A DNA stretch of 64,000 bases from Thermoplasmata archaeon (lineage in GTDB: Archaea > Thermoplasmatota > Thermoplasmata > Methanomassiliicoccales > Methanomethylophilaceae), in NCBI GenBank assembly GCA_015063125.1, contig SUTB01000001.1, positions 1 to 64,000 of the forward strand, written 5' to 3'. This document shows, in pieces, positions 19,097 through 30,949 of the stretch; position 1 is the stretch's first letter, and every line of letters begins with the position of its first letter. The notes under the pieces are model-generated. The model saw only the letters and a list, made by a program, of their open reading frames with translations. It did no database searches and was not told the origin of the DNA. A program made the position numbers and the translations under genes.

Positions 19097-19200
19097 GGAA
19101 GCTTTGAGTTCTCTTTATAGAATATATATCTAGTATGTAGAAGTCATGCTGACCATTTCTCTACATCTAACATTTTGAATGATTGTTCGTGTTAAAAAAT

Positions 19201-19232
19201 AAGGCCGGTCGTTAGGAGGTCCGACCAGCCTT
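19201..19232 (-). terminator. Hairpin with a T-run on the minus strand, no known upstream gene
   Basis: Stem AAGGC-c-GGTCG / CGACC-a-GCCTT around a ten-base loop. Read on the minus strand it is followed at once by ATTTTTTAAC, the layout of an intrinsic terminator. No minus-strand gene lies between here and the mtbC promoter region. Confidence 0.45.
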
Positions 19233-19300
19233 TGGGTGGTGTTAACGCGTTGTTTAGGCGAGTATTGATAATGAGTAGTCAATTAGTGTATAAATATTAT

Positions 19301-19472
19301 TTGATAAATCAATCTAATTTAATATCATATAATATTTATATTTTATTCTAAATTACTAATTACTATAAAAATAAAAAGTAAAATCATAATTTGATTAATC
19401 TTTATAACATCACATTTTCTAAAGTTATAGATTGATACGTCAAGCTATAAATAGAATTGATTGACATATCAA
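19301..19472 (+). promoter_or_regulatory. mtbC promoter with three TTGA-N4-TCAA operators
   Basis: Three copies of the same 12-base palindrome occur at 19301-19312 (spacer TAAA), 19432-19443 (TACG) and 19461-19472 (CATA). The TATA box TATAAATA (19446-19453) lies between the second and third copies. A start about 25 bases downstream of the TATA box would fall at or just after the third copy, so a bound dimer should block the promoter. The natural candidate binder is the MarR protein at 23115-23723, since the same palindrome lies directly behind that gene. Confidence 0.65.
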
Positions 19473-19478
19473 ATTGTA

Positions 19479-19493
19479 GAGTGCAAAGCACTC
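19479..19493 (+). other. Leader hairpin in the mtbC 5' untranslated region
   Basis: Perfect stem GAGTGC / GCACTC with loop AAA, lying between the predicted transcription start and the ribosome site GGAGG at 19513-19517. It may stabilise the message; function unknown. Confidence 0.45.
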
Positions 19494-19525
19494 GTTTGGA
19501 CACATCCAAAACGGAGGAATTACAA

Positions 19526-20167
19526 ATGGAAGAGTATGAAAAGATGCTGCATGACGCGATGGTGGGCTGCAAGGTCCCCGAGATACTCGGAGCAGTAGAC
19601 AAGTCTTTGGAAGCCGGAATGACACCCGTTGATATCATCAACGCTATGTCTGCAGGAATGTCCGATGTGGGCGTCCTGTTCGAGAGGGGAAAGCTGTTCC
19701 TGCCCCATGTTCTCTCTGCAGCGGCTGGAATGAACAAGACAATGGAGAAGCTTACGCCTTTACTCGAGAGCACAGGCGGATCATCAGGTCCGAAGGTCTC
19801 AGTTGTCATGGGTACTGTCGAGGGCGATGTCCACGACATCGGAAAGTCGATCACATCCACAATGCTTCAGTGCGCGGGATTCGAGATCCACGACCTCGGA
19901 AGGGATGTTCCTCTTGATAATTTCATAAAGGAGTGTAAGGACAACGGATGCACGATGTGCGGAATGTCCGCACTTATGACTACAACGATGACCGGAATGA
20001 AGGTCGTCATAGACAAACTCCAGCAGGAAGGAATCCGTGACAAGATCACGGTCATGGTCGGCGGAGCACCTGTTACTCAGGGTTATTGTGACAAGATCGG
20101 TGCAGACCTCTACGGAGAGTCTGCCTCCGAGACTACTCAGAAAGCAAAAGCATTGGTTAGTGATTGA
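19526..20167 (+). CDS. mtbC: Dimethylamine corrinoid protein MtbC
   Basis: A 213-residue protein with two parts: an N-terminal helical cap (residues 1-90) and a Rossmann B12 domain bearing the base-off motif as EGDVHDIGKS (His is the lower cobalt ligand), then GMSALMTTTM and GGAPVTQGY. It accepts the methyl group from dimethylamine via MtbB and passes it to the CoM methyltransferase. The start is the ATG at 19526, eight bases after GGAGG; a longer TTG reading from 19457 would begin inside the operator. mtbB follows with one base between. The assignment to MtbC rather than MtmC or MttC rests on that neighbour. Confidence 0.92.
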   Translation: MEEYEKMLHDAMVGCKVPEILGAVDKSLEAGMTPVDIINAMSAGMSDVGVLFERGKLFLPHVLSAAAGMNKTMEKLTPLLESTGGSSGPKVSVVMGTVEGDVHDIGKSITSTMLQCAGFEIHDLGRDVPLDNFIKECKDNGCTMCGMSALMTTTMTGMKVVIDKLQQEGIRDKITVMVGGAPVTQGYCDKIGADLYGESASETTQKAKALVSD

Positions 20168-20168
20168 A

Positions 20169-21578
20169 ATGACGGCAGAACACCGCATGCGTATGGGTGA
20201 CGGAGCCATCCAATGGATGACAAAGGAGCAGATACGCGCAGACGTAGAAGACGGAGTGAACAACGCAGTTGATTGTGCAGAGGTTCCCGCACTTACAGAG
20301 GACGACATCTCCCGCATCGTGGACATCATGTGCGAGAAAGGACGTACGGTCTCGGTTGAGCCTGGAGAGGAGGTTATCTTAACTCAGGACGGGGGAGAGT
20401 TGAAGCTACTCATGGACAACGGATCGTCAAGTCCCGCTCTTGAGATGAGTCGTACAGCTGCCATCCAGGTGCACGAGCGTGCTCTCGGAATGGATACCTT
20501 TGAGGTCGCATACTTCGACCCCAGCACAAAGCAGATTAAGCCTGTCATCGGAATGGAAATGGCCCACTGTCAGAATGTCATGGCCAACACCGTCATTCCG
20601 ATGTTGTACATGTTCATGCCCAATATCGGACTGTATTACCAGCCCACCGGACCATTCGGAAACCCTCCAGACCTTATGAGGGAGTTCAAGATCGATGAGG
20701 CCATGGAGGCCGGAGAGAATGCAAAGAATATGATGCGTGACGATATCGTCTACATCGGTGAGAGGATTCTCTCCACCGGAATGGATGGAATGGACTTTGA
20801 TACCACCGCTTCTGGAGGAGACCTGGACTTCGTGGGTTCACTCGAAGCAGTTGAGGAGATCCGTAAGACATACCCCGACGCAGACATACAGATGGGAATG
20901 TCCGCTGAGTCCGTTCTTGGAATCAACGGAATGTGCGAGTACAAGGGAATGCTGGCTGCAGGATTGTACCCCCACCAGCAGGTCAAGCTCGCTGAGGCCG
21001 CCGGAGTATCCACCTTCGGACCCGTCGTCAACACCAACTCTTCAAGATCCACGGCATGGAACGTCGCTCGTGCAGTCACGATGGTTAAGGAGTGCTCCAA
21101 AGTCTCCAAGATCCCGCTGCAGGTCAACATGGGAATGGGAGTGGGAGGAACCCCGATGTTCGAGACCCCTCCAATCGACGCCATCACCCGTGCCGACAAG
21201 TGTATGATCGAGATCGCTCACGTGGATGGACTTTAGGTCGGAGTGGGGGACCCCATGGGTCTGATTTCCCACTACACCAGTTCAGGTCTGGGCGGTATGC
21301 GTACCACCGGAGATTTAGTAGGAAGAGTCCAGCTTCGTAAGAAGTGTAAGATTTCCGAGTCCAAGAAGTATGTGATGGACAAGCTCGGAATCGGATATGA
21401 GGACCTTTCCGATGAGTGCTTCATGAGGAATTTCCGCGAGGAGCACGGAATGGGTGTCATCACCACCATCGGAGGAGCACCCTATGGAATGGAGGCTAAG
21501 TTCAACATCGAGGAAATGCTTGACATGGACATCGCATGTTGTAACCATCTCAGAGAGGTGGCTCGTCTCCACCGTTGA
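20169..21578 (+). CDS. mtbB: Dimethylamine methyltransferase MtbB, pyrrolysine-containing
   Basis: 469 residues read through a TAG codon at 21234-21236 (residue 356), in the context AHVDGL-TAG-VGVGDP. That is the known pyrrolysine position of MtbB. The upstream part (MRMGDGAIQWMTKEQI, GLYYQPTGPFGNPPDLM, MGMGVGGTPMFETPPID) and the downstream part (SSGLGGMRTTGDLV) both match MtbB, not the shorter MtmB or MttB. It moves a methyl group from dimethylamine to MtbC. The final stop is TGA. I start at the ATG at 20169, directly after the mtbC stop; residues before it in the same frame belong to mtbC. Confidence 0.96.
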
Positions 21579-21589
21579 TTAAACCTTTC

Positions 21590-21607
21590 AGCCGGGGAAT
21601 CCCGGCT
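21590..21607 (+). terminator. Hairpin between mtbB and the permease gene
   Basis: Stem AGCCGGG / CCCGGCT with loop GAAT, twelve bases after the mtbB stop, followed by TTCTC. With a co-directional gene only 17 bases further on, it may be a partial terminator or a 3'-end stabiliser that sets mtbCB apart from the permease. Confidence 0.5.
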
Positions 21608-21623
21608 TTCTCAAGGTGATAAC

Positions 21624-22652
21624 ATGACTGATATCGAAAGTATAATCAAGAAACAAAAGAGCAACCGTGTCAAATGGGGTTTCATCTGGGCCATCATCTG
21701 TGCGGTTCTCTGGGGTCTCGGTTACATTCCTCTGACAGTATTCTGGGGAGTGACCCCGTTCGCAGATCCCGAAGTGGACTACATCGCGGCTTCAGTCCTC
21801 ATCTCAGCTTTCCAGTCGATTGTATTCGGAATCGTTCTGGCACTCATCTGGGTTGCTGTCAATGGAAAGATCAAGGAAGTTGGAAAGACTGTCAAGAAAC
21901 TGGCAGTCTCCAAATGGCTGTTCACCGGAGCGATCTTCGGCGGACCCATGGCATTGTTGGGAACTGCACTGGCCATCGGATACATCGGAGGAGCTTTCGC
22001 TGCCTCGTTCACCCTGCTGTGTGCAGTAGTCGGAACAGTTCTCGGAAGGCTCGTTTACAAGGAGAAACTGTCCATCAAGACGATCGCAGGTATCATTCTG
22101 ATCCTGGTCGGTTGTGTGATCATCCTCGATCCTCAGGGAGTCATCGATGAGATCTCGGCCGGCGGATCCATCATCGGATACATCGGCGGAATCATGGCAG
22201 CGGTCGGATTCGGTACCGAGGGTATCTTCGCGTCCAGGGCAATCGATGTCACGGATTCCGATTCCAGTGTCATCGTCAAGTACATCAGCGAGTCCATCAT
22301 GTGGATCTGTATCGCATTCCCCATCTCGTTGGTGATCTTCCCCGGATTCGGCGACCTTCTGGTCTCTACCATCACCTCCTTCGACTTCATGTTCTGGATG
22401 GTGATCGCGGCGCTTTCTCTCGGAATGTGCTATGTAGCAATGTACAAGTGCTACCCTCTGATCGGAGTGGGACGTACCGTCAGTTTCACGGCATTCTACG
22501 TGCCTGTATCCATCGTTGCTCTCACCGTATTCCTCGGACAGTCGATCTCGATGTTCATCATAGTCGGTGCGATCATCGCGATCATCGGTATGTTCGTGAT
22601 GTACTGGGAGAAGGATTCCATGGCCGACTCCATGCGTGAGGGAGGCGAGTGA
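21624..22652 (+). CDS. EamA/DMT-family permease, candidate methylamine transporter
   Basis: A 342-residue protein with ten membrane helices in two homologous halves, opening ICAVLWGLGYIPLTVFWG, typical of the drug/metabolite transporter superfamily. It lies 46 bases downstream of mtbB and shares its direction and likely its transcript, so uptake of dimethylamine is an inference from context. The well-known methylamine permease family MttP is different. It is followed by two very small genes with almost no spacing. Confidence 0.75.
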   Translation: MTDIESIIKKQKSNRVKWGFIWAIICAVLWGLGYIPLTVFWGVTPFADPEVDYIAASVLISAFQSIVFGIVLALIWVAVNGKIKEVGKTVKKLAVSKWLFTGAIFGGPMALLGTALAIGYIGGAFAASFTLLCAVVGTVLGRLVYKEKLSIKTIAGIILILVGCVIILDPQGVIDEISAGGSIIGYIGGIMAAVGFGTEGIFASRAIDVTDSDSSVIVKYISESIMWICIAFPISLVIFPGFGDLLVSTITSFDFMFWMVIAALSLGMCYVAMYKCYPLIGVGRTVSFTAFYVPVSIVALTVFLGQSISMFIIVGAIIAIIGMFVMYWEKDSMADSMREGGE

Positions 22653-22653
22653 G

Positions 22654-22935
22654 ATGTCCTTGCCATTGAAGTCCGTTATGCTCACCTACCTGAAGGATGG
22701 CGAAGCACATTGGGATTACGAGCTGGTAGAGCGCCTCATGAACGAATCCGGTAAGAACTCGGAGTACTGGAAGTTCCAGTTCCGTTTCTGGCTGATGGAG
22801 TTCCTAGGCTGCGGTCTCATCACCGATGTTGGGTACGAAGAGGACGATGGAACCAAGTTCAAAGCAGAAAATGTGCTCTCGAAGTACAAGATCACTGATC
22901 TCGGACTCCAGAGAATCGAGACCATGCTGGAGTGA
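22654..22935 (+). CDS. Small winged-helix-like protein
   Basis: A 93-residue protein (MSLPLKSVMLTYLKDGEAHW...). A predicted helix-turn-helix is followed by a hairpin-like DVGYEEDDGTKF wing, and the end (KYKITDLGLQRIETMLE) looks like the end of a PadR or MarR winged helix. The start ATG lies one base after the permease stop, so it is translationally coupled. It may sense something for the methylamine operon; I cannot name a family with confidence. Confidence 0.55.
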   Translation: MSLPLKSVMLTYLKDGEAHWDYELVERLMNESGKNSEYWKFQFRFWLMEFLGCGLITDVGYEEDDGTKFKAENVLSKYKITDLGLQRIETMLE

Positions 22936-22939
22936 TATC

Positions 22940-23056
22940 ATGGGCGGAGAAGAGATATTCGCTTTCGATGGTGGATGGATCGCATTCATCGCAGTTGTTT
23001 TGATACTGGATGTCGCGATGTTCTACATAGGAAGGAAATTCACTAGGAAGATTTGA
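22940..23056 (+). CDS. 38-residue single-helix membrane protein
   Basis: An ATG four bases after the preceding stop opens MGGEEIFAFDGGWIAFI, then a hydrophobic helix (residues about 13-31) and a basic tail (GRKFTRKI), ending in TGA. The tight spacing, clean topology (acidic outside, basic inside) and a terminator hairpin 11 bases later support a real gene. It could be an accessory subunit of the permease; that is inference. Confidence 0.55.
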   Translation: MGGEEIFAFDGGWIAFIAVVLILDVAMFYIGRKFTRKI

Positions 23057-23067
23057 TCAAACCATTT

Positions 23068-23083
23068 GGCCCCTTCGGGGGCC
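23068..23083 (+). terminator. UUCG-loop terminator of the mtbCB-permease operon
   Basis: Stem GGCCCC / GGGGCC capped by TTCG; the flanks ATTTG and CAAAT extend the pairing past one bulge. It closes the operon before the MarR gene. Confidence 0.65.
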
Positions 23084-23114
23084 TCAAATTGTTTAGCTTA
23101 TCAGGCGGACAGGC

Positions 23115-23723
23115 ATGAATTCTTTACTATCGGAAAGAAATAATAACGGGCCAAGTGATACAGAACGTAACATGGCCGGCAATTCAGAGATATATTGGAA
23201 TTCGTACCTGCCCATATTCTTCGATAGGATGAGCATGGCCATGCGCGACCATATGACTGATTCAGTGGCAGATTACGGTTTAACCAGTGCCCATGCAGTG
23301 TACATGATTGCCATAAGCCTTGAAGGTCCGATGTCGCAGAAGGAGCTGTCCAAGTTTCTCGATATGGATCCGGCCAACACCAATCGTGTTGTCAAAGTAC
23401 TCAGGGACAAGGGTATGATCTATGATGATCGTGTGAGGGAGGATAGCCGCAACTACAAGATCCATCTCACCACGATAGGGAAGGAATTGGCGGAGAAGGC
23501 CATGAACGATACTTCTGAGTGGATGGAGGGCATAATGTCTGATATCCCGCTAGAGGACATCATGAACATGAGGAATACATTAATCAAAATCTTAGGTAAG
23601 ATGAATGTGGATCTTGAAGGTTACATGGCCTCAGAGTACACCAATCCATTTTACACATATTTGTCCACCAATCCTCCAAAAGATGGTTGGCTGTACCATA
23701 GGTCTAATTTATCTGAAGAGTGA
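23115..23723 (+). CDS. MarR-family regulator of the dimethylamine locus (putative)
   Basis: A 202-residue protein with a MarR winged helix (residues about 55-150): TSAHAVYMIAISLEGPMSQK, the recognition region MDPANTNRVVKVLRDKGMI and the wing DDRVREDSRNYKIHLT. It is longer than usual, with an N-terminal segment YWNSYLPIFFDRM and a C-terminal tail ending in NPFYTYL. Both extensions are shared with the second MarR protein at 28884-29531 and suggest a special subfamily. A copy of the mtbC operator lies three bases after its stop. It is the best candidate for the TTGA-N4-TCAA binder. Confidence 0.8.
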   Translation: MNSLLSERNNNGPSDTERNMAGNSEIYWNSYLPIFFDRMSMAMRDHMTDSVADYGLTSAHAVYMIAISLEGPMSQKELSKFLDMDPANTNRVVKVLRDKGMIYDDRVREDSRNYKIHLTTIGKELAEKAMNDTSEWMEGIMSDIPLEDIMNMRNTLIKILGKMNVDLEGYMASEYTNPFYTYLSTNPPKDGWLYHRSNLSEE

Positions 23724-23725
23724 TA

Positions 23726-23737
23726 TTGACTCGTCAA
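23726..23737 (+). promoter_or_regulatory. Fourth TTGA-N4-TCAA operator
   Basis: Sequence TTGACTCGTCAA, just upstream of the ribosome site of the flavoprotein gene. It links that gene to the mtbC regulon. Confidence 0.5.
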
Positions 23738-23754
23738 AAAGGAGGATTGACGTC

Positions 23755-24315
23755 ATGTCGAATATTGTGGTGATTTTTTCCAGCCCAAGAGCAGAAGGCA
23801 ATTCGTGCACTTTGGGCAAGGCAGTGATGGGAGGAGCTATGGGGCTTTCCATGAACACCATCAAGATCCACAGGCTGAATTCAATGTATTCGGTGCGTGG
23901 ATGTCAGAACTGCGACAGGTGCAGTGATGGATCCCCCTGCTACATAGAGGACGACATAAAACAGGTCCTCGAGGATATCAAGGAATGCGATTCTCTCATC
24001 ATATCGATGCCCATGTACTTCAACGGACCGTGTGCTCAGTTCAAGGTTCTGGAGGACAGGCTGTTCTCCCATATGACTCCCGATCTGAAGCCTCGTTATC
24101 CCGGAAAGAAGCTGGTCATCATCCTGACGCATGACGACAAGGAATGCGACGGCATCGCCGATATGGTCATGGTGCAGTTGAAGGATGTATTCGAGCGCAA
24201 GCTCGGTTTCAACATCATAGGCACCATCAACTACAGATGCGACCGCAACCGCAACTCCGCAGCATCCGATAAGGAGCTCTTGGACTACGCCACGAATCTC
24301 GGCAAGCAGTTGTGA
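23755..24315 (+). CDS. Flavodoxin-fold iron-sulfur flavoprotein-like reductase
   Basis: A 186-residue protein of the NADPH-dependent FMN reductase / iron-sulfur flavoprotein group. The FMN phosphate loop SSPRAEGNS is at residues 9-17, followed by the cysteine cluster CQNCDRCSDGSPC near residues 50-62, and ISMPMYFNGP around 84. The spacing suggests a 4Fe-4S cluster. It has a strong GGAGG ribosome site. Behind the MarR gene and an operator copy, it may serve redox upkeep of the corrinoid system; this is inference. Confidence 0.8.
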   Translation: MSNIVVIFSSPRAEGNSCTLGKAVMGGAMGLSMNTIKIHRLNSMYSVRGCQNCDRCSDGSPCYIEDDIKQVLEDIKECDSLIISMPMYFNGPCAQFKVLEDRLFSHMTPDLKPRYPGKKLVIILTHDDKECDGIADMVMVQLKDVFERKLGFNIIGTINYRCDRNRNSAASDKELLDYATNLGKQL

Positions 24316-24386
24316 AGGACAATACCGGTACACACTGTGTCCCGCCAACGCTTAATATAAGCGGACCGTTGCCACCTTTGATATTC

Positions 24387-25469: not shown

Positions 25470-26465
25470 TCACAACTCTTTCTCAAGGAGGTCTTTGGTC
25501 TTCAAATCCCTGAAGACCTCCATTGTTCTTTTCATACAGATGAACAGCATGGCCTCGACATCCCCGATCCCGGAGAGTCCTGCCGCTCCACCGTGTCCCC
25601 CGCCGTCGGTGACCGTCTCCTTGCCGATACCCTGAACGATCTCCCCGAGGTGCAGTCCCTTGCGGACGACCTCCTGGGTAGCTCTGGAGCTTATCCTGAA
25701 GGTATCATCCCTCTGTGATCCGACGAAGACCACATCCGCCCCGGCGTTCATGATCGCCCTGCAGGATGATGCCTCGAAGCTCCCTCCGTACGCGGTGGCG
25801 ACGATGTAGTTCCCTACACGGTCGAACTTGGTCCTTTCGATGGCCTTGAGCATGGCGATCTTCTCGGACATGCTGACCGGAGCCACTGTGAAGTTGTAGG
25901 CCTCGTCCATGTCAATGTTGCAGCGCCTCATGAGGTCAGCAAAGGCCTCCAAGAGCCCCGGTTTGGCGAATTGGAAATGTCCGCTGTCCGTTATCATTCC
26001 GCCGATCAGCATGAGGGCCATATCACGGTCTATCGGGGTGTTGCTCTCATCGAGGATCTCTTTGATTATCTCGCAGCAGGATGTCCTCTTGTCATCGCAG
26101 TAGAAGTTGTACCCGTCCCATTTCCCGGTGGGGACGTGGTGATCTATGATGATGGCATCCTTGGGGATCTCAACCTCGGTCTCAAGCTGTTCCGGGGACG
26201 AGGTATCGACGATGACGACCTGATCGTATCTCGATATGTCGCAAGATTCCAGAATGGGCACGTCCATCTTCTCGACGACAAGCCTACTGATCCTGTCGAT
26301 GCCGTTACCGGCGAAGATGTCCGCCTCGGGGAAAGCCCTCTTCAGAGCATAAGCGGAGCCTATGGCATCCATATCCGCATTGCCGTGGACCAGGATGACC
26401 TTCCTCTTCCCTTTGAGTTTGTCCGCGATATCCCCGAACATGTCCGTGACATATCTAGGAATCAT
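25470..26465 (-). CDS. DHH-family phosphoesterase (NrnA-like)
   Basis: A 331-residue protein with the DHH core: HGNADMDAIGSA (metal-binding, residues about 27-38), the acidic IVDTSSPEQL segment, IIDHHVPTGKWDG with the DHH triad, and ITDSGHF. A DHHA1 domain follows, with GGGHGGAAG near the C-terminus. Such enzymes degrade short oligonucleotides, pAp or cyclic dinucleotides with Mn2+. It is convergent with tyrS, with three bases between the stop codons. Confidence 0.88.
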   Translation of the reverse strand: MIPRYVTDMFGDIADKLKGKRKVILVHGNADMDAIGSAYALKRAFPEADIFAGNGIDRISRLVVEKMDVPILESCDISRYDQVVIVDTSSPEQLETEVEIPKDAIIIDHHVPTGKWDGYNFYCDDKRTSCCEIIKEILDESNTPIDRDMALMLIGGMITDSGHFQFAKPGLLEAFADLMRRCNIDMDEAYNFTVAPVSMSEKIAMLKAIERTKFDRVGNYIVATAYGGSFEASSCRAIMNAGADVVFVGSQRDDTFRISSRATQEVVRKGLHLGEIVQGIGKETVTDGGGHGGAAGLSGIGDVEAMLFICMKRTMEVFRDLKTKDLLEKEL

Positions 26466-26502
26466 AAATAGGTTGACAGAAAGAGCCGTCGACTAAAATG
26501 AA

Positions 26503-26570
26503 GTCTAGACAATATTTTATACTTATATTGTTGTAACAATATTGTTAAGACAATATTGCTTATGCAATAT
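26503..26570 (+). promoter_or_regulatory. mttBC promoter with overlapping palindromes
   Basis: TATA-like TTTTATAC lies at 26515-26522. Over and behind it are three interlocking palindromes: ATATTGTT-gt-AACAATAT (26525-26542), CAATATTGT-taag-ACAATATTG (26537-26558) and TATTGC-ttat-GCAATA (26554-26569). CAATAT recurs at 26537, 26551 and 26565, exactly 14 bases apart, with another at 26510. A GTCTAGAC palindrome lies at 26503-26510. The array covers the expected transcription start. The binder is probably the MarR protein at 28884-29531. Confidence 0.6.
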
Positions 26571-26587
26571 AATCGGAGGCAAGGAAA

Positions 26588-28789
26588 ATGAAGAATCTGA
26601 AAGTGCAGGTCCTAAGCGAAGATGAGATGAGAGACATCCATGATGCGACCCTTAAGGTCCTGATGGAGCCAGGAATACTTGTGAACAACAAGGAAGCACG
26701 TGACATCTACCGTAAGGCAGGATGCACAGTGGATGACAACACCAGAATCGTCAAGATTCCCAAGGATGTCGTCGAGAACGCGATAAAGAACTGTCCTCCC
26801 GAGTTCACTATGTATAGCCGTGACGGTAGGCATAACGTAAGGATGGTATCCGACGGTTCAGTGGTCAACGATATGACCTTCGGTGTCGGAACCCGTATGA
26901 TAGATTACGTGGACCATGACGAGTTCAACTGTCGTGACAGCACACTCGAGGATATGGCTAGGATTTCAAAGCTGGTCGAGTCGTGCGACAATATAGATTG
27001 GTTCTGTTCACCCGTTTCAGCGATCGATCATGCTCTCGATCCCGTACGTTCTCTGAGGGAGGTCAAGGCGATTATCGCAAACTCTTCCAAACCTATGCTT
27101 CTCGATCCCGATCCAGGATTCATGCAGGAATACTTCGACATAGAGGTCGCATGCTACGGCGGGAACAAGAACAGGGCAATGAAAGAGCCCTTTTTCCTCG
27201 TCGGAGGATGCCCTTCAAGCCCTTTGCAGCTTGATGATGTCTTCTGTCAGCTCGCTATCAATGCGCCCGAGTATGGTATGCCCTTCATGTGTCTGAGCAT
27301 GGCAATGGGAGCAGCATCATCACCGATCTTCATCGCGGGAACCCTTGTCACCCACAATGCAGAGGTGCTCGCGGGAATCACACTCGTACAGCTCGCACAC
27401 CCTGGAGCTCTCACCTTCTACGGGTCATCCACCACATGTTTCGACTTCGTCAACGATGCTGCGCCCGTAGGATCGCCCGAGCTAGCGCTCATCAGCGCAT
27501 CTGTCGCACAGCTGGCACACTTCTACAAGATCCCCTCGATCGTCGCAGGAACCTAGTCCGATGCAAAGACTCCCAATGCACAGGCAGCACATGAGAAGAC
27601 CATCACCGGAATGATGCCCTCCCTCGCAGGAGCATCGAACATCTACGGCGCGGGAATGCTGGAGCTCGGAATGTCCTTCTCCCTGGAGCAGCTGGTCATC
27701 GACAACGATGTCATAGGCATGTTCAGATATGCGAAGAACGGAGTCGAGGTCAATGATGGGACTCTTGCATACAAGTCGATACGCGAGGTAGGAATCGGAA
27801 ACAACTTCCTCGATTACGAGGACACCATGCAACACATGGATCTCCCTTCCAAACCCGCCGTCATAGACAGGCGTATGTTCGATCCTTGGGCCGCTGATGG
27901 AAAGAAGGATACCGTGGACCTCGCTCACGAGATCGTTATGAGGATCCTAGAAGCACCCGTTGTAAGCCCGCTCTCATCCGAGGCAGAGGCGGCCATTGAT
28001 GCAATCATCACCAAGAAGTTCAAGGAGCTTGAGGAAGAGAATGCTAACAAGGTCGAGGAAGTCCACGAGTATAAGAAAAACGAGCAGGTTTCCGAAGCAG
28101 CTGTCGCATCAGTGAAGTACGAGACCAAGGACATCGGAGAAGAGGCACAGGCAGCATTCATCAAGAGGGCTTACGACGCTGTCGTTTCTTACAATGCCAA
28201 AGAGGCTAAGGCGGTTGCAGACGAGGCTGTCGCTGCGGGAGCCGATCTTCTATCCCTCATCCAGAAGGGATATACAGAGGGAATAAACGCCGTAGGCGCC
28301 AAATACGAAGCCAAGGAGGTATTCCTGCCTCAGATGATGGCCTCCGCCAAGGCCATGGATGTGGGAATGGAGGTCCTGTCCCCATACATCGGATCATCCT
28401 CCGATTCCGAAGGGCTCGGAAAGATCGTGATGTGCACCATCGAGGGAGACATCCACTCCATCGGTAAGGATATCGCAGCCATCCTGATGAAGGTCGCTGG
28501 ATTCGAGGTCATCAACCTCGGAAAAGATGTTCTGGTGACGGACATCGTTCAGGCTATCATAGACAATGATGCAGTAGCAGTCGGAACCTCAGCTCTGATG
28601 ACCTCTACGATGATCAACCAGAAGACCCTTGAGGATGCCCTCAGGTCCGCAGGAATCAGAGAAGGTCTCGTGACCAATGTTGGCGGGGCGCCCGTTACAC
28701 AGGGATGGGCAGACGAGATCGGCGCTGATATTTACGCTGAGACCGCGACTGAGGCTGCCAACAAGATGGCATCCGCTATGGTGGACTGA
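26588..28789 (+). CDS. mttBC: Trimethylamine methyltransferase fused to its corrinoid protein (MttB-MttC), pyrrolysine-containing
   Basis: One frame of 733 residues with TAG at 27554-27556 (residue 323), context SIVAGT-TAG-SDAKTPNAQ, the known pyrrolysine position of MttB. Residues 1 to about 500 are MttB (VGGCPSSPLQLDD, FYGSSTTCFDFVN, GASNIYGAGMLELGMS). A Lys/Glu-rich helical linker follows (KKFKELEEENANKVEEVHE), then a complete corrinoid protein from about residue 525, with its helical cap and the B12 motif EGDIHSIGKD near 620, plus GGAPVTQGW. There is no stop, start or ribosome site between the parts. GGAGG precedes the ATG by eight bases. Methyl transfer from trimethylamine to cobalamin would occur within one chain. 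Confidence 0.93.
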
Positions 28790-28883
28790 GAACGGTCATA
28801 AAACCCAACATTTGGCCCCTCGGCCTGTAATCGACCGGGGGGTCGACATTGTAAAATAAGGGGGAAATCATCCCTTGAAGCGC

Positions 28884-29531
28884 ATGAAAAAGCAGGAAGA
28901 GAAGAAGTCTGTTGTAGAATCCGACCACGGGATAGAGTATACGACTGCAACTAATATCCTAGAGGGAACGGAAGATCTGAACAACATGTATTGGAATTCT
29001 TTCCTGCCGATCTTCTTCGAGCGTATGACTTTCCTCATGAGGAAAGCGATGAACAAATCCCTTTCCCAATATGATCTGACCAGTTCACATGCTTTCTATC
29101 TGATCGCATTGAATCTTCAGGGCCCCCAGACACTTCTGGAATTATCTGATTTCCTGGATATCGATCCTGGGAACACCAACCGCGTCATCAGGTTGCTCAC
29201 AGAGATGGGGCTTGTCGACGACGACAGGGAATCCCCCAGGTCCAAGAAGTACCGTGTGTTCCTTACCGAGAAAGGCAAAGAGCTGAGCGAGCAGGTCATG
29301 CGCGATACAAACGCACAGATGAATGCTTACTTCGACGGGATATCGACAGAACGCGTTCAGGATCTCAGGACCACTCTGGTGGACATTCTGCAGAACGTCG
29401 ATCCTGAGTTCCGCACGTATGTCGATTCGAAGTACATCAATCCGTTCTATACATATCTGGGCGTCTTCACAAAGGACCTGGAGTTCACGGCTTATCCGCG
29501 TCGTGTCCGCGACGATAAGAAGTCCAACTGA
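28884..29531 (+). CDS. MarR-family regulator of the trimethylamine locus (putative)
   Basis: A 215-residue paralogue of the MarR protein at 23115-23723. It shares the N-terminal YWNSFLPIFFERM, the winged helix with IDPGNTNRVIRLLTEMGLV and DDDRESPRSKKYRVFLT, and the C-terminal INPFYTYLG. The N-terminus is highly charged (MKKQEEKKS). I prefer the ATG at 28884; a TTG at 28875 would add three residues. It follows mttBC in the same direction with a GC-rich hairpin-like stretch between, so it may be weakly co-transcribed and feed back on the mttBC promoter. Confidence 0.8.
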   Translation: MKKQEEKKSVVESDHGIEYTTATNILEGTEDLNNMYWNSFLPIFFERMTFLMRKAMNKSLSQYDLTSSHAFYLIALNLQGPQTLLELSDFLDIDPGNTNRVIRLLTEMGLVDDDRESPRSKKYRVFLTEKGKELSEQVMRDTNAQMNAYFDGISTERVQDLRTTLVDILQNVDPEFRTYVDSKYINPFYTYLGVFTKDLEFTAYPRRVRDDKKSN

Positions 29532-29539
29532 GAAAAGTA

Positions 29540-29556
29540 AGGGGGATGAACCCCCT
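29540..29556. terminator. Shared hairpin between convergent MarR and ABC permease genes
   Basis: AGGGGG / CCCCCT with loop ATGAA between the two stop codons. It can serve both directions. Confidence 0.55.
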
Positions 29557-29560
29557 GAAA

Positions 29561-30949
29561 TCATTTCTTGCGCTTGTTGCGTCCGGTCAGCTTTTCCACG
29601 TACTTGTTCTGCCCGAGTCCTGTGATGAGGATATCGGACTTGTACAGCCTGACGGTGATGAATATCGACACCAATGCGAACGCCGCCATGTAAACCAGAC
29701 CTGCCAGCACCAACGTCATGTCACCGTTGAGCAGTGCCTCCGGAGCCATCATGGGGTGGCTGAAAGGTATGACGAACAGCACAGCTTTGATGATGATGTT
29801 GGAGCCGTACCATCCTGAGAACATCGTGATGAACATGGGGATGATGGCAAGGATGCTAAGAGGCATGGTCATCGTCTGCGCCGATTTGTAGTTCTTCGCA
29901 AACGCTCCGAGGATCATGCATATTCCCAATGCGCATGCGATCGAGAGGAACATGGACAGTCCTATCAGTGCATAATCGGTGAGTCCGAGCGCCAGACCGA
30001 ACGACCCTATGTCTATTCCGCTGCCGCCCACGGCCATCGCTGTGACCGAACCGATGTAAAGCCCCATGCCGACCATGTAGGCCAATCCGAATATCAGTCC
30101 GACAGCCGCTGCTGCGATGATCTTACCGGTGACTATGGTGGTCCTGCTGATCGGCAGGGTCAGCAGCGTCTCCAGAGTCTTGTTCTCCTTCTCGGATCCC
30201 ATGGAGCTTATGACGATGCTTCCCACCATCATGATGATGATCATGATGATCATCGGGATGAACATGGTCTGACCTGTCAACGCCTCGCTGATGTCGGAGG
30301 GAGTGACGTCCTCGTAAGGCTCTCCGTTGATGTAGGTGACGGTATGCGATCCGTTCACAGGGGTCTTCAGGAAGTTGATGAATCCTGCATCCTCTCCGAG
30401 CATGAGGAAGGCCGAGAGGCTGCTGTTCATGTATTGGACGATGTACGACGTGGTGGTCGAGGACACGGTACCTCCGATCATTCCCGAGGGCTGGTAGAGG
30501 TAGTACTGGTAGATGTCTCCCTTCTCGTAGGGTCCTCCCTCGCCGGATGTGGCCGCATCCATGCTGTCCTCTATGTTCTTCTTGAAATCATCACCAAGGA
30601 CCAGGACCACTGAGGCTCCTGTGGATTCCATCTGTTCTAGGATGTTGCCTTTATCCATCTTGATGACGAAGTCCTCGACGTTGGAGGGGGTGATCCTCTT
30701 ATCGCCGCTGCTGAGGTAGAAGCTGATCAGGAAATCGTATGCATCCCATGAGCCGTATTCCGTCTCGATGTACTGGTCCTCGTAGTTCGCTATGCCTATG
30801 GTGGGCAGCACGGCGCTCTTCTGCACCTCTTCACCTATGAGTCCGCCCAGCCCTGCGAAGAGGACCATCATGATGATCACGGAAGCCACGGATCCGGGCG
30901 TGAGGAGTTCCTTGACCTCCTTCCTTACGATGTTGGATAGATCGCTCAT
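29561..30949 (-). CDS. ABC-2 type transporter permease (NatB-like)
   Basis: A 462-residue protein. One N-terminal membrane helix (residues about 22-40) is followed by a large extracellular loop of about 190 residues, then five to six helices including FIPMIIMIIIMMVGSIVISS. The motif SEKENKTLETLLTLP just after that helix is typical of ABC-2 exporters of the NatAB kind. The gene overlaps the ATPase gene upstream by four bases. Substrate unknown; sodium, a peptide or a drug are the family's usual cargo. Confidence 0.85.
   Translation of the reverse strand: MSDLSNIVRKEVKELLTPGSVASVIIMMVLFAGLGGLIGEEVQKSAVLPTIGIANYEDQYIETEYGSWDAYDFLISFYLSSGDKRITPSNVEDFVIKMDKGNILEQMESTGASVVLVLGDDFKKNIEDSMDAATSGEGGPYEKGDIYQYYLYQPSGMIGGTVSSTTTSYIVQYMNSSLSAFLMLGEDAGFINFLKTPVNGSHTVTYINGEPYEDVTPSDISEALTGQTMFIPMIIMIIIMMVGSIVISSMGSEKENKTLETLLTLPISRTTIVTGKIIAAAAVGLIFGLAYMVGMGLYIGSVTAMAVGGSGIDIGSFGLALGLTDYALIGLSMFLSIACALGICMILGAFAKNYKSAQTMTMPLSILAIIPMFITMFSGWYGSNIIIKAVLFVIPFSHPMMAPEALLNGDMTLVLAGLVYMAAFALVSIFITVRLYKSDILITGLGQNKYVEKLTGRNKRKK

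Follow-up and report, generated by a model that had tools for sequence, protein, structure and literature searches.

A fusion of the trimethylamine methyltransferase MttB with the corrinoid protein MttC across a predicted pyrrolysine codon in an accessory cassette of a Thermoplasmata archaeon

Positions 26588–28789 (+ strand) of the 64,000-nucleotide stretch of contig SUTB01000001.1 analysed here (the window) form a single 733-residue reading frame in which a TAG at residue 323 is the only internal stop and which terminates in TGA. As judged from its sequence, the gene is confirmed as a genuine MttB–MttC fusion, with a predicted pyrrolysine codon in its frame. Its product is probably (a rough probability of 0.8) a single-chain trimethylamine (TMA), or close tertiary amine, corrinoid methyltransferase in which a flexible linker joins a pyrrolysine (Pyl)-containing MttB to its own MttC-type domain, and would constitute a second TMA system carried in an accessory cassette. 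A preliminary description of this DNA had proposed one frame running from MttB through UAG323 and a charged linker into a full B12-binding protein with a DIHSIGK motif, and translation, Pfam and the PYLIS_3 element bear this out. The layout of the gene is as follows.

26575–26579, + strand: GGAGG ribosome-binding site before the ATG of the fusion (sequence)
26588–28789, + strand: mttBC fusion gene, 733 residues, with Pyl323 (translation, Pfam, NCBIfam)
26588–28027, + strand: MttB domain, residues 1–480, of the TIM-barrel trimethylamine:corrinoid methyltransferase type (PF06253, TIGR02369, TM-score of 0.95 to 7xcl_A)
27554–27556, + strand: TAG very likely read as pyrrolysine, residue 323, equivalent to Pyl334 of Methanosarcina barkeri (alignment, PYLIS_3)
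27554–27653, + strand: PYLIS_3 RNA element of mttB genes, RF02510, 64.5 bits (Rfam)
28028–28156, + strand: linker, residues 481–523, the end of a long helix followed by disorder at about residues 490–517, 41% charged (model, composition)
28157–28786, + strand: MttC-type corrinoid domain, residues 524–733, a helical cap and a Rossmann B12 core (Pfam, alignment, model)
28448–28468, + strand: DIHSIGK cobalt-ligand motif with Asp621 and His623, the third member of the triad being Thr674 (motif, alignment; triad according to PMC9842639)

Comparison of the fusion with Pfam produced hits to MTTB over residues 5–480 (2.6e-79), B12-binding_2 over residues 526–597 (1.8e-15) and B12-binding over residues 611–723 (3.9e-19); matches to both PF02607 and PF02310 correspond to a cap plus a Rossmann B12 domain with the DxHxxG motif. 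The MttB half scores 567.7 bits with the NCBIfam family TIGR02369 (trimeth_pyl), above the cut-off of 525, and the corrinoid half scores 210.4 bits with TIGR02370 (pyl_corrinoid), just below the cut-off of 215.3. In trees the corrinoid half clusters with MttC-type and not with MtbC-type proteins. A CoM methyltransferase domain (MtaA/MtbA-type MT2) is absent from the Pfam and NCBIfam matches of the fusion. GC3 is even along the gene, and between 28040 and 28160, where a stop or frameshift would have undone the proposed frame, the window sequence contains no stop, frameshift or in-frame ATG and its GC3 is coding-like. The corrinoid half is not free-standing, being joined to MttB and lacking a credible start of its own. 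An annotation pipeline that halts at UAG would report a truncated MttB and, apart from it, an open reading frame of 392 residues in place of the one gene.

Several features of the DNA indicate that pyrrolysine is very likely inserted at residue 323. This residue aligns to Pyl334 of M. barkeri MttB (7xcl), and the PYLIS_3 match, which begins at the TAG itself and exceeds the gathering score of 38, argues that the codon is no chance stop. PYLIS_2 is present in the adjacent mtbB, and mttB and mtbB, both pyrrolysine genes, are the only TAG-terminated frames among the 51 window frames of at least 150 residues. PylS is encoded in the genome (260 bits, cut-off 178). The true stops of the 51 long frames are TGA in 40 and TAA in nine, with no TAG, the two remaining TAG triplets being the pyrrolysine codons.

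The active-site residues of M. barkeri MttB and the ligand triad of MttC have been defined (PMC9842639), and nearly all are retained here: the MttB half keeps Gly99, Met238, Pyl323, Tyr353 and Gly361 (Gly110, Met249, Pyl334, Tyr364 and Gly372 in M. barkeri) and the corrinoid half keeps Asp621, His623 and Thr674. Thr111, which makes a hydrogen bond to the corrinoid in M. barkeri, is replaced by Val100, as it is in several unfused relatives. At positions that are at least 95% conserved in the unfused proteins the MttB half shows no departures, and the corrinoid half shows nine, mostly conservative, against a median of one for unfused MttC. In a folded model of the fusion (pLDDT 85.9) the MttB fold ends in a long helix that reaches about residue 498, an adjoining disordered segment has pLDDT below 50 at residues 490–508, and the helical cap and the Rossmann core complete the chain. 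Its halves superpose on 7xcl (TM-score 0.95 for MttB) and on the MttC of 7xcn (7xcn_N; TM-score 0.92). No solved structure among the Foldseek matches listed is the same fusion; 9yce (MtgB) is also among the matches. Among the best structure matches, methionine synthase MetH is the one whose Foldseek alignment spans both halves, with a poor superposition. MetH is likewise a single polypeptide in which linkers connect TIM-barrel methyl-donor modules with a cap:B12 module, but it uses other methyl donors and another acceptor, has several barrels and an activation domain, and is unrelated in function.

The closest characterized counterpart is the M. barkeri pair (7XCL, 7XCM and 7XCN; PMC9842639), which shares both folds, the Pyl site, the triad and the 1:1 use of the two proteins with the fusion, at identities of 46% for MttB and 45–46% for MttC in structural alignment. 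The M. barkeri proteins are separate polypeptides in a 6:6 complex, in agreement with the earlier statement that mttB and mttC are separate in classical systems, whereas in the fusion about 43 linker residues join the two halves into a single chain. The suggestion that fusion forces a 1:1 stoichiometry does not hold, since the native MttB–MttC complex of M. barkeri is already 6:6 (PMC9842639) and nothing would change in this respect. Archaeal fusions of a corrinoid or corrinoid-like protein to a methyltransferase also occur in MtsD, MtsF and MtsH of Methanosarcina and in MtrAH of Asgard archaea. In MtsD, MtsF and MtsH a corrinoid domain is fused to a CoM methyltransferase. To our knowledge, neither the Mts proteins nor MtrAH contain pyrrolysine. 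The MtrAH fusion belongs to other protein families (PMC11291895). For the order Methanomassiliicoccales, mttB and mttC have been treated as separate genes (PMC5688252) or MttBC has been named with no mention of fusion (PMC8727293; PMC4153887), and no report of an MttB–MttC fusion was found in the literature searched. The parts, the chemistry and the idea of a fused carrier are thus already known, and the points of interest are the rarity of the fusion, its probable repeated origin, its exchange at strain level and its dependence on UAG.

The genome of the window (G000) also contains a canonical mtbC-mtbB-mttB-mttC-permease operon (C4, about 87–91.6 kb), which encodes the same enzyme families and has the same Pyl codon but differs in that mttB and mttC are separate and in that the permease is not that of the cassette. 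The canonical MttB and MttC are 43 and 56% identical to the respective halves of the fusion, and in the MttB tree the window MttB half falls outside the canonical MttB clade, with a split supported at 100/100. Because this genome has a complete, separate mttB and mttC, the fusion is additional and the cell has a source of MttC that needs no UAG readthrough. The claim that without pyrrolysine neither activity would be made therefore stands for the fusion gene, which has no credible internal start, and fails for the cell.

The fusion lies in one of two neighbouring accessory segments that are absent from a conspecific genome (G077).

19154–24325, no strand: accessory segment A, replaced by 5 bp in G077
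19526–20167: mtbC, segment A
20187–21578: mtbB with Pyl, segment A
21624–22652: EamA permease, segment A
22636–22935: orf99, segment A
23115–23723: MarR-type regulator, segment A
about 23755–24315: FMN reductase, segment A
26443–29569, no strand: accessory segment B, the fusion gene and a regulator, replaced by 99 bp in G077
26523–26572, + strand: a cluster of three overlapping palindromes of the ATATTGTTGTAACAATAT type, immediately upstream of the fusion (four matches against 0.09 expected by shuffling)
28875–29531, + strand: MarR-type regulator directly downstream of the fusion, a paralogue of that at 23115–23723

The G077 sequence is about 99% identical to the window on both sides of the two gaps. 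At another site (C1, about 602 kb) G077 has a cassette of broadly similar composition, whose fusion is 55% identical to that of the window, and G000 has the matching empty site (C7:34285–34298, 12 bp against about 8.6 kb). The two cassettes share about 71% DNA identity over mtbC-mtbB-permease. Each site may reflect a gain or a loss, but the fact that each genome lacks the cassette of the other, together with the low identity of the two, favours horizontal exchange; no target-site duplication was seen at the cassette sites. Orthology of the window and G077 fusions is ruled out by their 55% identity, compared with 99% in the flanks, and by their different sites. The AT-rich palindromes occur nowhere else in the window, and the array may be an operator of the adjacent MarR-type regulator.

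In related cassettes of the family the mttB of this clade is unfused; many of them also hold a non-Pyl mttB, and some have an mttC of their own as a separate gene. Those of G045 (RUG10898) and G034 resemble the window cassette in their MarR regulator, mtbC, mtbB, EamA permease, orf99 and same-clade Pyl-mttB, but their mttB is unfused and followed by a non-Pyl mttB. The product of orf99 (99 residues) has no Pfam or NCBIfam match and is encoded next to the EamA permease in many relatives' cassettes at 31–51% identity; relatives of the MarR-type regulators of both segments also accompany such cassettes in other genomes. Cassette MtbB (20187–21578) and its RUG10898 counterpart are 86% identical, against 70% for the MttB halves, so the cassette genes may differ in history. 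Non-Pyl MttB paralogues follow the Pyl mttB immediately at L050:9368–10873 and L086:10583–12115, the L050 copy scoring 568 bits with TIGR02369. At L054:8394–9992 in G077 an MttB-like gene (33% identical) adjoins its own mttC; its only in-frame TAG comes early, at residue 47 of the open frame, with none at the catalytic position.

A search of MttB proteins of the order for C-terminal B12-binding domains had been proposed. The fusion does not mark the lineage: among the matches listed, at the top of which a fusion would rank, true fusions are found in only three of the 147 genomes of the order (the window genome, G077 and G040), and the fusion differs between two conspecific genomes. Apparent full-length matches are often two genes with intervening stops, so that open-frame length alone does not prove fusion. 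No further case is among the listed matches in 390 sampled Thermoplasmatota and 299 Pseudomonadota genomes, and of the 313 plasmid records that contain an MttB-like match not one covers 80% of the query.

The unfused G045 protein is the sister of the window fusion in the MttB tree (support 100/97), and the G077 and G040 fusions group with the unfused protein of G034 (support 100/100). A single fusion clade is rejected for the MttB half (195 log units worse, p-AU 1.5e-62), which implies that fusion happened twice, or that it happened once and the corrinoid half was later lost. The corrinoid tree places G077 and G040 among free-standing mttC genes that belong to another group (99/98); it gives the window copy no position and does not reject one clade of fusions (p-AU 0.28). 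The examined parts of the G034 and G045 cassettes contain no mttC, as losses would predict. Two fusions are the preferred reading, over a single one with two or more subsequent losses of that half. Suitable starting points for fusion are common, since loss of one stop would join mttB and mttC in G079, G023 and G108: at L023 (G079), L032 (G023) and L028 (G108) the two genes share a frame and are separated by one TGA and at most a few codons, the G079 junction reading GGVQ-TGA-ATGACC. The chances are about even for the fuller proposal that the fusion arose at least twice independently in one archaeal family, each time within the Pyl-MttB clade that belongs to an accessory mtb/mtt cassette, that conspecific strains hold alternative cassettes at different sites and that synthesis of a whole corrinoid protein has come to lie behind one UAG.

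We infer the protein product, substrate, mechanism and advantage of the fusion as follows. By analogy with M. barkeri, Pyl323 in the TIM barrel would bind the amine and position a methyl group for attack by the Co(I) that the tethered corrinoid domain carries. This domain would then hand the methyl group to a separate MtbA-type CoM methyltransferase and be re-reduced by RamA; the genome encodes a CoM methyltransferase of the MtaA/MtbA family and two reactivases of the RACo/RamA type. The linker would raise the local concentration of the acceptor, and fusion would make synthesis of the corrinoid domain dependent on UAG readthrough. Since MttC of M. barkeri contacts chiefly the dimerization loop on the adjacent MttB subunit (PMC9842639), transfer in the fusion may take place within one chain or across the dimer, and the linker may allow both. 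The corrinoid domain must presumably still leave to meet MtbA and RamA, which the disordered linker would permit, and the earlier picture of a B12 domain that swings while tethered is plausible in the light of the model.

The substrate is most likely TMA, to judge from the residues compared above, and possibly another methylated amine. A real fusion acting on such an amine, with a built-in acceptor that avoids sharing the canonical MttC, is rather unlikely as the overall explanation. It would accord with the separate paralogue clade and its 100/100 split from canonical MttB, with the cassette having its own permease and MarR regulator, and with the non-Pyl MttB paralogue that directly follows the fusion in the G077 cassette. 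Non-Pyl MttB proteins are known quaternary-amine methyltransferases. Such a paralogue (568 bits) also passes the TIGR02369 cut-off, so that passing it is no proof of a TMA substrate. On the other hand, the active-site residues examined are all but one as in TMA-specific MttB, and the same cassette contains a Pyl mtbB, whose substrate dimethylamine is what demethylation of TMA yields.

The remaining alternatives concern the gene itself. Release of the corrinoid domain as a second product, through an internal start or protease cleavage, is quite improbable: the linker is disordered and between the G077 and G040 copies is unconstrained, with free replacements (pN about 0.5), and an in-frame GTG occurs at 28112 in the linker region, yet this GTG has no Shine–Dalgarno motif, whereas GGAGG precedes the starts of the fusion gene and mtbC, no ATG is found near the domain boundary and the linker measures 46–50 residues by a uniform count in all three fusions (about 43 by the window domain bounds). 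That the corrinoid half is decaying in a degenerate extra copy that is being lost is likewise quite improbable. Its end branches in the corrinoid tree are long (0.85 in the window and 0.54 and 0.49 in the other fusions, against a median of 0.10 for unfused MttC) and it has the nine departures at near-invariant positions noted above, but these are mostly conservative, triad and motif are intact, there are no stops and dN/dS is about 0.1–0.3; between G077 and G040 it is about 0.10 for MttB and 0.11 for MttC, values that are approximate because dS is near saturation. One possible reason for the faster evolution of the corrinoid half is that tethering relaxes the need of the carrier to find its partner. 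An assembly or base-calling error that erased a stop between adjacent genes is scarcely credible. The window copy is known from one assembly only and several relatives (e.g. G079) have mttB and mttC in frame a single stop apart, but the window gene has a 43-residue linker with coding-like GC3 and its domain boundary retains no trace of a start codon or ribosome-binding site. The genomes G077 and G040, one of which is a single 1.66-Mb contig, hold full-length fusions that are laid out alike and have linkers of similar length, which further argues against an isolated assembly error as the source of this architecture.

The fusion would represent a natural single-chain form of an enzyme and carrier pair hitherto studied as a two-protein complex. 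One gene would thus allow methyl transfer, tethering and UAG readthrough to be studied together, with the conspecific strains as matched material. The TMA-demethylating capacity of gut-type methanogens may lie partly on exchangeable cassettes, which would bear on proposals to use gut-type archaea against TMA-linked cardiovascular risk (PMC10673518).
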